Origin: Halomicrobium zhouii
GTDB lineage: Archaea; Halobacteriota; Halobacteria; Halobacteriales; Haloarculaceae
Reading direction: 5' to 3'
NCBI RefSeq assembly: GCF_900114435.1
Contig: NZ_FOZK01000001.1
Span: 186,001 to 250,000, forward strand
DNA: 64,000 nucleotides
Made by a program: the position numbers and the translations under genes. The notes beneath the pieces were generated by a model. The model was not told the DNA's origin, ran no database searches, and worked only from the letters and a program-made list of their open reading frames with translations. Below are positions 4,366-38,834 of the stretch, one piece after another; position 1 is the stretch's first letter, and each line of letters begins with the position of its first letter.

Positions 4366-7300
4366 ATGCGGGAGGCCGACGAGCAGTACTTCGAACGGCT
4401 CGAATCCGACCTCGACGACGCCTTCGAGGTCGCGAAGGCCGCCCGCGAACGCGGCGGCGACCCCACGAAGGACGTCGAGATTCCGACCGCCCGCGACATG
4501 GCCGACCGCGTCGAGAACATCCTCGGCATCGAGGGGGTCGCAGCGCGCGTGCGCGAACTCGAAGGCGAGATGTCCCGGGAGGAGGCCGCCCTGGAACTCG
4601 TCGAGGACTTCGTCGAGGGCGAGGTCGGTGACTACGACTCCGACGCCGGCAAGATCGAGGGGGCAGTCAGGACCGCAGTCGCCCTGCTCACCGAGGGTGT
4701 CGTCGCCGCCCCCATCGAGGGGATCGACCGCGTCGAGGTGCTCGACAACGACGACGGCACGCAGTTCGTCAACGTCTACTACGCCGGTCCTATTCGCTCT
4801 GCCGGCGGGACCGCCCAGGCCCTCTCTGTCCTGGTCGCCGACTACGCCCGCGCCCTGCTCGGCATCGACCAGTACAAGGCCCGCGACGAGGAGATCAACC
4901 GCTACGCCGAGGAGATCGACCTCTACGACAAGGAGACGGGCCTCCAGTACTCGCCCAAGGAGAAGGAGAGCAAGTTCATCGCCGAGAACATGCCGATCAT
5001 GCTCGACGGCGAGGCCACGGGCGACGAGGAGGTCTCTGGCTTCCGCGACCTGGACCGCGTCGACACCAACTCCGCCCGCGGCGGGATGTGTCTCGTCGCC
5101 GCGGAGGGGATCGCGCTGAAAGCGCCAAAGATCCAGCGCTACACCCGGAACCTCGACGAGGTCGACTGGCCGTGGCTCCAGGACCTCATCGACGGGACCA
5201 TCGGCAAGGACGACGACGGCGACGACGAGGCGGACGGTGAGGACGGCGACGCAGCGGACGGGGAGGAAGCCGAGGGCGGGGAAGCGGGCGACGAAACGGA
5301 GGACGACGCCGACGACTACCCCACTTCGCCCCGCGTCGACCCCGCCAAGAAGTACCTCCGGGACCTGATCGCTGGCCGCCCCGTCTTCTCACACCCCTCG
5401 AACGCCGGGGGGTTCCGCCTGCGCTATGGCCGCTCGCGCAACCACGGCTTCGCGACGGCGGGGGTCCACCCGGCGACGATGCACCTCGTCGACGACTTCC
5501 TCGCCACCGGCACGCAGATCAAGACCGAACGGCCGGGCAAAGCGGCCGGCGTGGTCCCGGTCGACTCCATCGAGGGGCCGACCGTCCGCCTGGCCAACGG
5601 CGACGTCCGCAGGATAGACGACCCCGAGGAGGCACTCGAGGTCAGGAACGGCGTCGAGAAGATCCTGGACCTCGGCGAGTACCTCGTCAACTACGGCGAG
5701 TTCGTCGAGAACAACCACCCGCTCGCGCCCGCCTCCTACACCGTCGAGTGGTGGCGCCAGGAGTTCGAGGCGGCCGGCGCCGACGTCCAGGCCATGGCCG
5801 ACGACGTCCACGTCGACCTGGCGGACCCCTCTGCCGACGAAGCCATGGAGTGGGCCCGGGAGTACGACGCGCCGATCCACCCCGAGTACACCTACTGCTG
5901 GCACGACGTGAGCGTCGGCGAGGTGAACGCGCTCGCGACGGCCGTCGAGAACGCCAGGGTCGCGCAAACGGATGGTGCCGTGGCCGCGGACCCGGCGTCG
6001 ACGCAGGGCGGCGACCTCGTCCTCCCGCGCTCCGAGACGGTCCGGAAAGCCCTCGAACACCTGCTCGCCGAGCACACCCAGCGCGAGGACGACCTCGTCG
6101 TCCCGGACTGGCGTCCGCTCGTCGCGACGCTGGGATTCGACCTGGACTCGCTGGACCGCGACTGGACCGTCGGCGACCTCTCCGAACGCGCTCGCAACTA
6201 CGACGGCGGCGACAACGCCATCGAGGCGATCAACGAGGTCGCCCCCTTCGAGGTTCGCGAGCGAGCGCCGACCCGCATCGGCAACCGGATGGGCCGGCCG
6301 GAGAAGTCCGAGAGCCGCGACCTCTCGCCGGCGGTCCACACACTCTTCCCCATCGACGAGGCCGGCGGCGCCCAGCGCTCGGTCAGCGACGCGGCCTCCC
6401 ACGCCGAGGAGATGAACGACCGCCAGGGCATCGTCGACGTCGAGATCGCTCGCCAGCGCTGTACTGACTGCGGCGAGGAGACGTTCCGCGCGCGCTGTCC
6501 CGACTGCAACGGGCTCACCGACGCCGTCTACGAGTGCCCCGACTGCGACCGCGAGGTCGAACCCGACGAGGCCGGCATGGCGGAGTGTCCCTCCTGCGAG
6601 ACGGGCGCGTACCCCACCCAGTACACGGAGATCGACGTCGGCGAGGAGTTCCGGAACGCGCTGGAGTCGGTCGGCGAGCGCGAGACGGCCTTCGACATCG
6701 TCAAAGGCGTCGAGGGGCTGATGTCCGCGGAGAAGGTCCCCGAGCCGATGGAGAAGGGGATCCTCCGGGCCAAACACGACGTCACGGCGTTCAAGGACGG
6801 CACCGTCCGCTACGACATGACGGACCTGCCCGTGACGGCGGTCCGTGCGACGGAACTCGACGTCACCGTCGACCAGCTCCAGTCGCTCGGCTACGAGACC
6901 GACGTCCACGGCGACCCGCTCCGACACGACGACCAGCTGGTCGAACTCAAGGTCCAGGACGTCGTCCTCTCCGACGGCGCGGCCGAGCACATGCTCAAGA
7001 CCGCCGACTTCGTCGACGACCTGCTGGCACAGTACTACGGCCTCGAACCCTTCTACGACCTCGACGACCGCGAGGAACTCGTCGGCGAACTCGTCTTCGG
7101 GATGGCGCCACACACCAGCGCGGCGACAGTTGGGCGAGTTATCGGATTTACGACAGCAGCGGTCGGGTACGCGCATCCGTACTTTCACGCCGCGAAACGC
7201 CGAAATTGCGACGGTGACGAGGATTGTGTGATGCTTCTAATGGACGGATTGTTGAATTTCAGTAAATCATTCCTTCCTGACAAGCGTGGCGGGAAGATGG

Positions 7301-7959
7301 ACGCACCCCTCGTCATGTCCTCCCGCATCGACCCCTCGGAGATCGACGACGAGGCCCACAACATGGACATCATGTGGGAGTACCCGAAGGAGTTCTACGA
7401 GGCCACCCGCGAGATGGCCGACCCCGGCGAGGTCGAGGACGTCATGAAGATCGCCGAGGAGACGCTCGGGACCGACCGCGAATACACCGACTTCGCGCAC
7501 ACGCACGACACCTCGAACCTCGCCGCCGGACCGGATCTGTCGGCCTACAAGACGCTGGGGTCGATGACCGACAAGATGGACGCCCAGCTCGCGCTCTCCC
7601 GGAAGCTCCGGGCCGTCGACGAGACTGACGTCGCCGAGCGGATCATCGAGTACCACTTCATGCCGGACATCATCGGCAACCTCCGGGCGTTCTCGCGCCA
7701 GGAGACTCGCTGCCTGGACTGCGGCGAGAAGTACCGCCGGATGCCGCTGTCGGGCGAGTGCCGGGAGTGTGGCGGCCGCGTCAACCTCACCGTCCACGAG
7801 GGGTCCGTGACGAAGTACATCGACACCGCGACGGAGGTGGCCCACGAGTTCGGCTGCCGCGAGTACACCAAGCAGCGCCTGGAGATTCTGGAGCGTTCCA
7901 TCGAGCGCGTCTTCGAGAACGACCACAACAAGCAGAGCGGGATTGCCGATTTCATGTGA
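4366..7959 (+). CDS. polC: DNA polymerase II (PolD) large subunit DP2, intein-free
   Basis: Catalytic subunit of archaeal family-D replicative DNA polymerase, 1197 residues. Visible in order are the conserved N-terminus, an acidic Asp/Glu/Gly insert (about residues 278-318) typical of halophiles, zinc-binding CxxC pairs (about 699-744), the active-site motif RRNCDGDED (Asn947-Cys948 and following; the aspartates are the PolD catalytic residues), and a C-terminal zinc motif (about 1116-1136). The motif is a known intein insertion site in archaea, but this copy has none. Bases 7126-7287 around it are only about 51 percent GC, against about 62 percent in adjoining segments, and use rare codons. 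Start is the ATG abutting the PPC gene. Confidence 0.97.
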   Translation: MREADEQYFERLESDLDDAFEVAKAARERGGDPTKDVEIPTARDMADRVENILGIEGVAARVRELEGEMSREEAALELVEDFVEGEVGDYDSDAGKIEGAVRTAVALLTEGVVAAPIEGIDRVEVLDNDDGTQFVNVYYAGPIRSAGGTAQALSVLVADYARALLGIDQYKARDEEINRYAEEIDLYDKETGLQYSPKEKESKFIAENMPIMLDGEATGDEEVSGFRDLDRVDTNSARGGMCLVAAEGIALKAPKIQRYTRNLDEVDWPWLQDLIDGTIGKDDDGDDEADGEDGDAADGEEAEGGEAGDETEDDADDYPTSPRVDPAKKYLRDLIAGRPVFSHPSNAGGFRLRYGRSRNHGFATAGVHPATMHLVDDFLATGTQIKTERPGKAAGVVPVDSIEGPTVRLANGDVRRIDDPEEALEVRNGVEKILDLGEYLVNYGEFVENNHPLAPASYTVEWWRQEFEAAGADVQAMADDVHVDLADPSADEAMEWAREYDAPIHPEYTYCWHDVSVGEVNALATAVENARVAQTDGAVAADPASTQGGDLVLPRSETVRKALEHLLAEHTQREDDLVVPDWRPLVATLGFDLDSLDRDWTVGDLSERARNYDGGDNAIEAINEVAPFEVRERAPTRIGNRMGRPEKSESRDLSPAVHTLFPIDEAGGAQRSVSDAASHAEEMNDRQGIVDVEIARQRCTDCGEETFRARCPDCNGLTDAVYECPDCDREVEPDEAGMAECPSCETGAYPTQYTEIDVGEEFRNALESVGERETAFDIVKGVEGLMSAEKVPEPMEKGILRAKHDVTAFKDGTVRYDMTDLPVTAVRATELDVTVDQLQSLGYETDVHGDPLRHDDQLVELKVQDVVLSDGAAEHMLKTADFVDDLLAQYYGLEPFYDLDDREELVGELVFGMAPHTSAATVGRVIGFTTAAVGYAHPYFHAAKRRNCDGDEDCVMLLMDGLLNFSKSFLPDKRGGKMDAPLVMSSRIDPSEIDDEAHNMDIMWEYPKEFYEATREMADPGEVEDVMKIAEETLGTDREYTDFAHTHDTSNLAAGPDLSAYKTLGSMTDKMDAQLALSRKLRAVDETDVAERIIEYHFMPDIIGNLRAFSRQETRCLDCGEKYRRMPLSGECRECGGRVNLTVHEGSVTKYIDTATEVAHEFGCREYTKQRLEILERSIERVFENDHNKQSGIADFM

Positions 7960-37364: not shown

Positions 37365-37910
37365 CTAGTCCTCGAGTTCGTCGATGATGCGGTCGAGCTT
37401 CTGTTCGACGGCGTGCTGGCGCCGTTCCAGTTCGACGAGGCGTTCGCCGACCTCGTCGACGTCGTCCCGCGTCGGGAACCCGAGCTGGGCGACGGTGTCC
37501 TGGCTGATGTCGTCGGCCTCCTGTTGCATCTCCATCATCGCCTCGACGAGCTGGCCGTTCGCGGCGGCGAAGGCGCTCGTGCCCATGACGTGTTTGAACG
37601 CCTCGTTGGCGGACTGGAGCCAGATGTCGCGGAACTCCGTCGGGTCGACCTCCTCGCCCTGTGCGGCGTCGGTCGTGCGTTCGAGCATCTGCTCGGCCGC
37701 GTTCATCCACTCCTCGTAGGCCTGGTTGTACCCCTGGATGCCCTCGGCGAACTCCTCGTCCTCGGGGATGGAGTCCTCGACGGCGTCGGCCCAGGACTCG
37801 ACGAAGGCCGCCTGGGCCTTCATGTTCTGTTCGACGGATTCCGAAACCGCCTCGTTCATCTGTTCGACCATCTCGGCCCACTCCTGTTGCATCTGGTTTG
37901 AGTTACTCAT
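37365..37910 (-). CDS. phaE: PHA synthase subunit PhaE
   Basis: 181 residues, mostly helical and acidic, with Met-rich helices and a C-terminal coiled-coil-like stretch ([20 protein letters not shown]). This matches the short haloarchaeal PhaE that activates PhaC as a class III synthase. The [13 protein letters not shown] segment is typical. It is 2 nt upstream of phaC and about 40 nt downstream of phaP, in the phaRPECB order known from haloarchaea. Confidence 0.93.
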
Positions 37911-38506: not shown

Positions 38507-38806
38507 TTACTCGTTTCGGGAACGTTTGACCGGGAGGACGAACGCCTGCACGATGTCGCCTTCCTCGATATCCAGGGCCTCGCGTTCGGCGTCCGGGATA
38601 GATATCCGGCCGCCGCTCTGCACGCGGGTCTTGAACGCAGCCGTCTGGCTCATCGCGCCGAGCTGGTTCATGTCCATGCCGGACATCCCGGCGCCCAGCA
38701 TCTGCTGCATCATCTCTTGCTGGCGTTCGATCGCTTGCTCGCTCATCTCCTGCATCCCTTTGAACATCGGGGGCGTCCACGGCAGGGCGTCGTCCTCGTC
38801 GGTCAT
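38507..38806 (-). CDS. phaR: AbrB-type regulator of the PHA locus
   Basis: 99 residues. The C-terminal half, TRVQSGGRISIPDAEREALDIEEGD, is the swapped-hairpin AbrB/SpoVT DNA-binding fold. The N-terminal half is Met/Gln-rich and amphipathic, suitable for granule or phasin contact. In Haloferax an AbrB-like PhaR represses the phaRP promoter and is titrated by granules; the same gene order here supports that role. First gene of the operon; TATA and three phased repeats lie upstream. Confidence 0.9.
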   Translation of the reverse strand: MTDEDDALPWTPPMFKGMQEMSEQAIERQQEMMQQMLGAGMSGMDMNQLGAMSQTAAFKTRVQSGGRISIPDAEREALDIEEGDIVQAFVLPVKRSRNE

Positions 38807-38834
38807 CTGTCAACAGAGTCTACATCCTTCGCAG

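Follow-up and report, generated by a model that had tools for sequence, protein, structure and literature searches.

An atypical silent-codon zone surrounds the empty pol-IIa intein site in polC genes of most intein-free haloarchaea

The window, i.e. the whole stretch of DNA analyzed here, comprises 64,000 nucleotides (G000:C1:186001-250000) from a haloarchaeal genome of 4.25 Mb. Among its genes is polC, of which this genome has a single copy. Inteins are selfish protein-splicing elements, and polC of the window contains an empty intein insertion site within a zone of scrambled codons (Table 1).

Table 1. Coordinates of polC and of the features in and around its intein insertion site (window positions).
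Feature	Position	Strand	Basis
polC, DNA polymerase II (PolD) large subunit DP2, 1197 aa, intein-free	4366..7959	+	ORF; PF24844, PF24846, PF03833, TIGR00354
Codon-scrambled zone	7126..7287	+	Maximum-likelihood segment, permutation test, comparison with relatives; GC3 0.50 vs. 0.93 in flanks
Zone, left arm, 27 codons	7126..7206	+	Near G301, G090 and the left arms of intein-bearing g6 and g15 alleles
Zone, right arm, 27 codons	7207..7287	+	Unbroken run in common with G301, from GAT at 7222 through TCA at 7269
Intein insertion junction Asn947/Cys948 (pol-IIa site), empty	7204..7209	+	Inserts of relatives at the junction
Likely (candidate) endonuclease target core	7183..7215	+	Largest codon contrasts between intein-free and intein-bearing alleles, confirmed by independent pairs

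An earlier note on this sequence had described a foreign-looking, GC-poor patch in polC, made up of codons scarce in the remainder of the gene and centred on an intein site. The base counts agree with this description, since 82 of the 162 bases in the zone are G or C as compared to 35-42 of 60 in each of the six adjoining 60-base segments. In a free-edge scan of polC for enrichment in A/T-ending codons, the maximum falls exactly on the same edges, with an LLR of 32.3 against permutation maxima of 15.7 (2000 codon permutations) and 19.9 (1000 block permutations); the AT3 is 0.50 inside the zone and 0.07 outside. TTG, AAT, AGT, CAT, TTT and CTT are present in the zone and absent from the other 1143 codons of the gene. 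For the codons that had been singled out, the counts among the 54 zone codons and the 1143 outside are, respectively: TTG 2 and 0; AAT 2 and 0; CTA, AGT and CAT 1 and 0 each; GTT 2 and 1; CGA and GGA 2 and 2 each; and TCA 1 and 1. The junction (7206/7207) lies at the exact centre of the zone, 81 bases from either edge. Among the 60 gene models of the window, three other segments score similarly or higher, all of them close to the start of a reading frame. Two strongly A/T-ending stretches on the minus strand (37366-37719 and 38508-38810) lie at the beginning of two neighbouring reading frames, one encoding a PhaC-like synthase and the other an unnamed coiled protein; they may reflect wrong start calls or atypical N-termini.

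The NCDGDED motif with Cys948 had been proposed as an intein site, and it is indeed one: three congeners (G001-G003) carry inserts of 540-546 bp exactly between Asn947 and Cys948. Among 79 loci fetched as intein-bearing candidates, 75 have an insert at this junction (507-1587 bp), which measures 1278-1587 bp in 45 of the 79 and 507-777 bp in 30. A large form (from L139) and a mini form (from L145) were sampled and both show an intein splicing domain, with a score slightly below the curated cut-off for the mini form, while a LAGLIDADG domain was found only in the large form. By a manual count of the match column, the polC match is split in roughly 60% of 391 Halobacteria genomes, and the intein state changes at least 51 times on a tree of the polC codons outside the zone. 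In L145, L141, L403, L404, L416, L417 and L139, the inteins at the pol-IIa site terminate in Gln, where Asn is usual, ahead of the Cys. In L148, L150, L152 and others, polC is interrupted at a second point near codon 977 (window numbering), some 30 codons further downstream than the main site and near the zone's right edge; this is probably pol-IIb. The patchy distribution of pol-IIa inteins in Halobacteria and the abundance of mini-inteins among them have been surveyed before (PMC4071816); that survey concerns the same insertion site, and covers the inteins, not the sequence of empty sites.

The zone is class-wide and not an oddity of the window genome. Among 74-76 intein-free haloarchaeal genes, third-position GC (GC3) averages about 0.88 along polC, dropping to 0.58-0.76 at codons 918-972. 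This is the sole GC3 dip across the 1197 codons (74 intein-free genes), and its edges are those that the earlier note had drawn from the window alone. In 53 of the 74 genomes, the strongest A/T-ending segment of the gene includes the intein site, with the edges of the best segments clustering near -27 to -34 codons on the left and near +18 to +29 on the right. The dip is fully missing in G001, G002 and G004. Nor does it occur at this highly conserved active site in the 47 intein-free PolC genes examined from other Halobacteriota, four of which have a flank GC3 of at least 0.87; thus, the dip is not forced by the amino-acid sequence. In the sample examined, the zone is therefore specific to haloarchaea. 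The patch is the most atypical window of its own gene in none of these 47, and the idea that GC-richer patches in Methanoperedens-like genomes represent recoding away from host usage was dropped on this count. An ordinary codon feature would be present in the same protein whatever the intein state, and this is not what was found.

The relationships of the patch differ from those of the gene. With the window patch as a DNA query against the 391 genomes, identity is 95% to the sister genome G005, 92% to G301 (genus g3) and 91% to G090 (genus g6), and only 79% to the intein-free congeners G004 and G006. Outside the patch the order flips. The right-arm run in common with G301 includes the codons CTA, TTG, TTG, AAT, AGT and AAA. 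In the tree of the flanks, the genus forms one clade (support 95/94) and a grouping of the window with G301 is rejected (p-AU 6e-7), whereas the patch data reject the genus clade with a lnL difference of 34.3 (p-AU 0.0019, or 0.010 without two long rows). Among six control tiles the lnL differences range from 0.2 to 14.4, and one tile also rejects the genus (p 0.013), so that AU tests on short tiles are somewhat liberal. It should be noted that part of the discordance depends on about 50 informative codons, and that similar base composition among AT-rich patches may add to the clustering. The correlation with flank distance is 0.14 for the patch and 0.47-0.73 for the other tiles. In an all-pairs analysis of patch sharing, the window-G301 pair has a z of -3.0 among 13,959 pairs, which is not decisive alone, and the tree test was therefore used.

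The two arms of the zone also have partly separate affinities. For the left arm, but not for the right, identity to intein-bearing alleles of g6 and g15 is 88-91%; the full patch matches intein-free g3 and g6 alleles. In some genomes a single arm is scrambled, as would be expected if the cut site were a recombination edge. As in a co-conversion tract, the zone borders the insertion site and its phylogeny conflicts with that of the rest of the gene. These results support exchange of the zone between genera by conversion, and the break-up of the genus in the patch tree is what the short gene conversion suggested earlier predicts.

Silent sites in the zone turn over rapidly. For close pairs (low flank divergence), the zone has about double the silent differences of the flanks, whether or not the alleles bear inteins, and a comparison proposed in the earlier note, of synonymous divergence along the gene, gives a step up at both 7126 and 7287. 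The changes include switches between the codon blocks of six-fold families: Arg AGR has a frequency of 0.22 in the zone and 0.046 in the flanks, Ser AGY has 0.55 and 0.10, and Arg AGR, Leu TTR and Ser AGY codons are 3.5 to 5.5-fold commoner in the zone. The earlier note had held that its reading would fail if the same codons occurred at the site in most haloarchaeal polC genes with a vertical phylogeny, or if divergence showed no step. Unusual codons do occur there in most intein-free haloarchaeal polC genes, but the phylogeny is not vertical and the step is present. Together with the absence of the dip from non-haloarchaeal PolC, this sets the zone apart both from an ordinary conserved codon feature and from a one-off scar.

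The depth of the dip is linked to the intein state. The mean GC3 drop is -0.215 in intein-free alleles, -0.124 in alleles with a large intein and -0.095 in those with a mini-intein, and of 53 matched pairs, 40 have the deeper dip in the intein-free allele (p 2.5e-6). Among 43 independent pairs on the flank tree, a deep dip goes with the empty state in about 16.6 and the opposite is seen in about 1.1; the median p is 1.5e-4 at a threshold of -0.20, 0.0024 at -0.15, 0.057 at -0.25 and 0.016 at -0.30. The largest single-codon contrasts by intein state are at -8 (TTC/TTT), -2 (CGG), -1 (AAC/AAT) and +2 (GGC/GGT), where the independent pairs also differ (median p 0.0013-0.0043). At these codons the window has TTT (7183), CGA (7201), AAT (7204) and GGT (7213), and intein-bearing alleles typically have TTC, CGG, AAC and GGC; the target of empty alleles is thus unlike that of element-bearing ones, as expected of homing-resistant alleles. 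The inner 19 codons show a stronger contrast than do the outer arms, and the span from -8 to +2 is of a size fitting an endonuclease footprint. One intein-free congener, G004 (L410), has fully canonical codons, and both its flanks and its patch are nearly identical to those of intein-bearing G001 and G002. It has likely lost its intein very recently, which would make it a natural control for susceptible alleles. The earlier proposal of a scar of homing or loss accordingly holds in tying the patch to the intein site, but clean loss of an intein is not supported, as this sister of G001 and G002 is without the patch.

Dips are also found at intein sites of other replication genes. The positions of the PolB and MCM sites were assigned from the break points of matches and from what is generally known about these inteins. 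MCM has a dip at codons 351-395, covering the Walker A site of MCM-a, and PolB has one around YGDT/DS and VIMN/SLYG (the PolB-b and PolB-c sites), with none at the equally conserved DLKSLYP (polB-a). Taking the three genes together, conserved windows have a GC3 of 0.741 if they lie no more than 20 codons from an intein site and of 0.874 elsewhere (p 2e-12, an approximate value since the windows overlap). The difference between alleles with MCM-a and empty ones is in the right direction, i.e. a weaker dip in those bearing it, and is not significant (p 0.20). RFC and RIR1 show no clear dip, with RFC having a slight one at most. In PolB the segments of individual genomes are discrete, e.g. 629-697 and 640-683 (edges 629/640 to 683-697), and it looks as though the stretch between the pol-b and pol-c sites is replaced as a single block. 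The intein-free PolB genes L224, L227, L230, L238, L239 and L247 have very sharp AT3-rich segments with edges close to these two sites. As for the window genome itself, its MCM gene (L378, G000:C1:267600-273200) bears an intein at about codon 428 (reference L249 numbering); the MCM-a site is empty there and has a mild local dip.

The location of the zone, its recurrence across the class, its link with the intein-free state, its fast synonymous turnover and its genus-level discordance are the observations to be explained. We consider it fairly probable that the zone is the local trace of recurrent breaks by homing endonucleases, of short-tract conversion, and of selection on empty alleles for synonymous divergence. 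Intein endonucleases of the haloarchaeal community would repeatedly cut empty polC alleles at 7206/7207, and each break would be repaired off another allele, intein-bearing or not, with replacement of tens to about 80 bp per side. Because such repair swaps a short stretch around the cut, the zone would move among genera independently of the remaining gene. Empty alleles with silent codons unlike the usual target and the donor flanks would turn intein-bearing less often, and selection would for this reason retain a scrambled zone centred on the cut. We infer both that the endonuclease causes the conversions and that homing resistance is the reason for the scrambled codons. Several findings count against this explanation: the weaker dip that intein-bearing alleles also have; the extent of the zone, which at about 81 bp to either side exceeds the typical width of a LAGLIDADG target; the a-site dip of MCM, which is not significantly weaker in alleles bearing MCM-a; the limits of the patch tree test given above; and the slight dip in RFC, even though RFC inteins are found in about a third of the genomes (manual count of long ORFs). 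We also put forward, tentatively and with more doubt than confidence, that silent recoding opposes a natural gene drive: scrambled zones of about 160 bp in empty essential replication genes may remove the target, starve repair of homology and spread between genera as short conversion tracts.

The main rival to breaks combined with selection is a form of draft without resistance, in which every homing or loss event carries some 80 bp of co-converted sequence with it, irrespective of codon content; selection for preferred codons would then be ineffective there, and usage would drift to mutational equilibrium. The symmetry of the zone, the decoupling of the patch phylogeny from that of the gene and the dip in intein-bearing alleles all agree with it. 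So does the codon pattern, since the codons lost from the zone are mainly C-ending and G-ending ones are retained, and the gaps near polC have a GC content of 60-62%. We nonetheless find it unlikely, as draft predicts neither a deeper dip in intein-free alleles nor a top contrast at the target core, and several patches, although chosen as extremes, have a GC3 of 0.40-0.45, which is below the intergenic GC of about 0.6.

The remaining readings are far less probable. A function of the silent sites unrelated to inteins, such as slow folding codons, RNA structure or a DNA element in the region encoding the active site, would agree with the recurrence of some choices across families, namely CAT at -11 in about 79% and TTT at -8 in 79% of intein-free alleles. 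We regard it as very improbable, given that most silent sites turn over fast, that the 47 non-haloarchaeal genes have no dip and G001, G002 and G004 no zone, and that the link with intein state and the dips at intein sites of two other genes would be left unexplained. A single conversion event that brought the patch into the window lineage from a foreign, low-GC donor would account for the low GC, the sharp edges and a patch closer to other genera than to congeners. The earlier suggestion of conversion from a foreign allele is supported by the genus-breaking phylogeny, but a low-GC donor was rejected and such a one-time event is scarcely credible: low-GC haloarchaea are not enriched among the nearest patches and are farther off (mean pS 0.58 for the window), the closest patches belong to GC-rich genera that share the dip, and the phenomenon is class-wide. 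Finally, mutagenic repair, with cytosine deamination of resected single strands at endonuclease breaks producing A/T-rich arms, would suit a zone of high synonymous turnover centred on the break site, but is most unlikely, as the expected pattern of T in the left arm and A in the right was not found (at four-fold sites, T3 is 0.136 in the left arm and 0.225 in the right, and A3 is 0.158 and 0.171, respectively), the left arm shows no loss of G-ending codons, and AGA and AGT require more than C-to-T changes.

The closest precedent is the group I intron of angiosperm mitochondrial cox1, which has co-conversion tracts of 35-81 bp, with one putative intron loss having kept its tract (PMC3192709). 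In both cases, a foreign and synonymously divergent tract flanks the site of a homing element. The cox1 tract, however, marks intron-bearing genes and is a shared motif on the 3′ side (PMC3192709), whereas the polC zone is two-sided, strongest in element-free alleles, lineage-specific and marked by the loss of preferred codons. For the polB intein of Haloferax volcanii, homing in vivo falls from 90% to 20% as the flanks are shortened from 850 to 250 bp, and is 27% with a changed target (PMC3024317). That system likewise involves a LAGLIDADG intein endonuclease in a haloarchaeal replication gene, with conversion dependent on flank homology and target, but the target changes were designed and non-synonymous, and natural synonymous zones in empty alleles are not described (PMC3024317). 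In Haloferacales, natural intein-free alleles resist invasion at the MCM-d site through an amino-acid change, a proline after the site, that blocks splicing; residues, not silent codons, were compared, and the polC zone differs in leaving the protein unchanged (PMC10643990). In the open-licence literature searched, we found no earlier description of silent-codon zones at intein sites or in intein-free alleles.

Taken together, these results suggest that the DNA-cutting traffic of endonucleases leaves a lasting mark at empty intein sites. If this is true, the intein sites of haloarchaea record a long contest between gene drive and target at silent sites, legible in empty alleles, and would provide a sequence-only marker for homing pressure, past or present. 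Synonymous sites near intein insertion points would then mislead phylogenies and codon-usage statistics, and the zones would be a natural case of resistance comparable with resistance to engineered homing drives.
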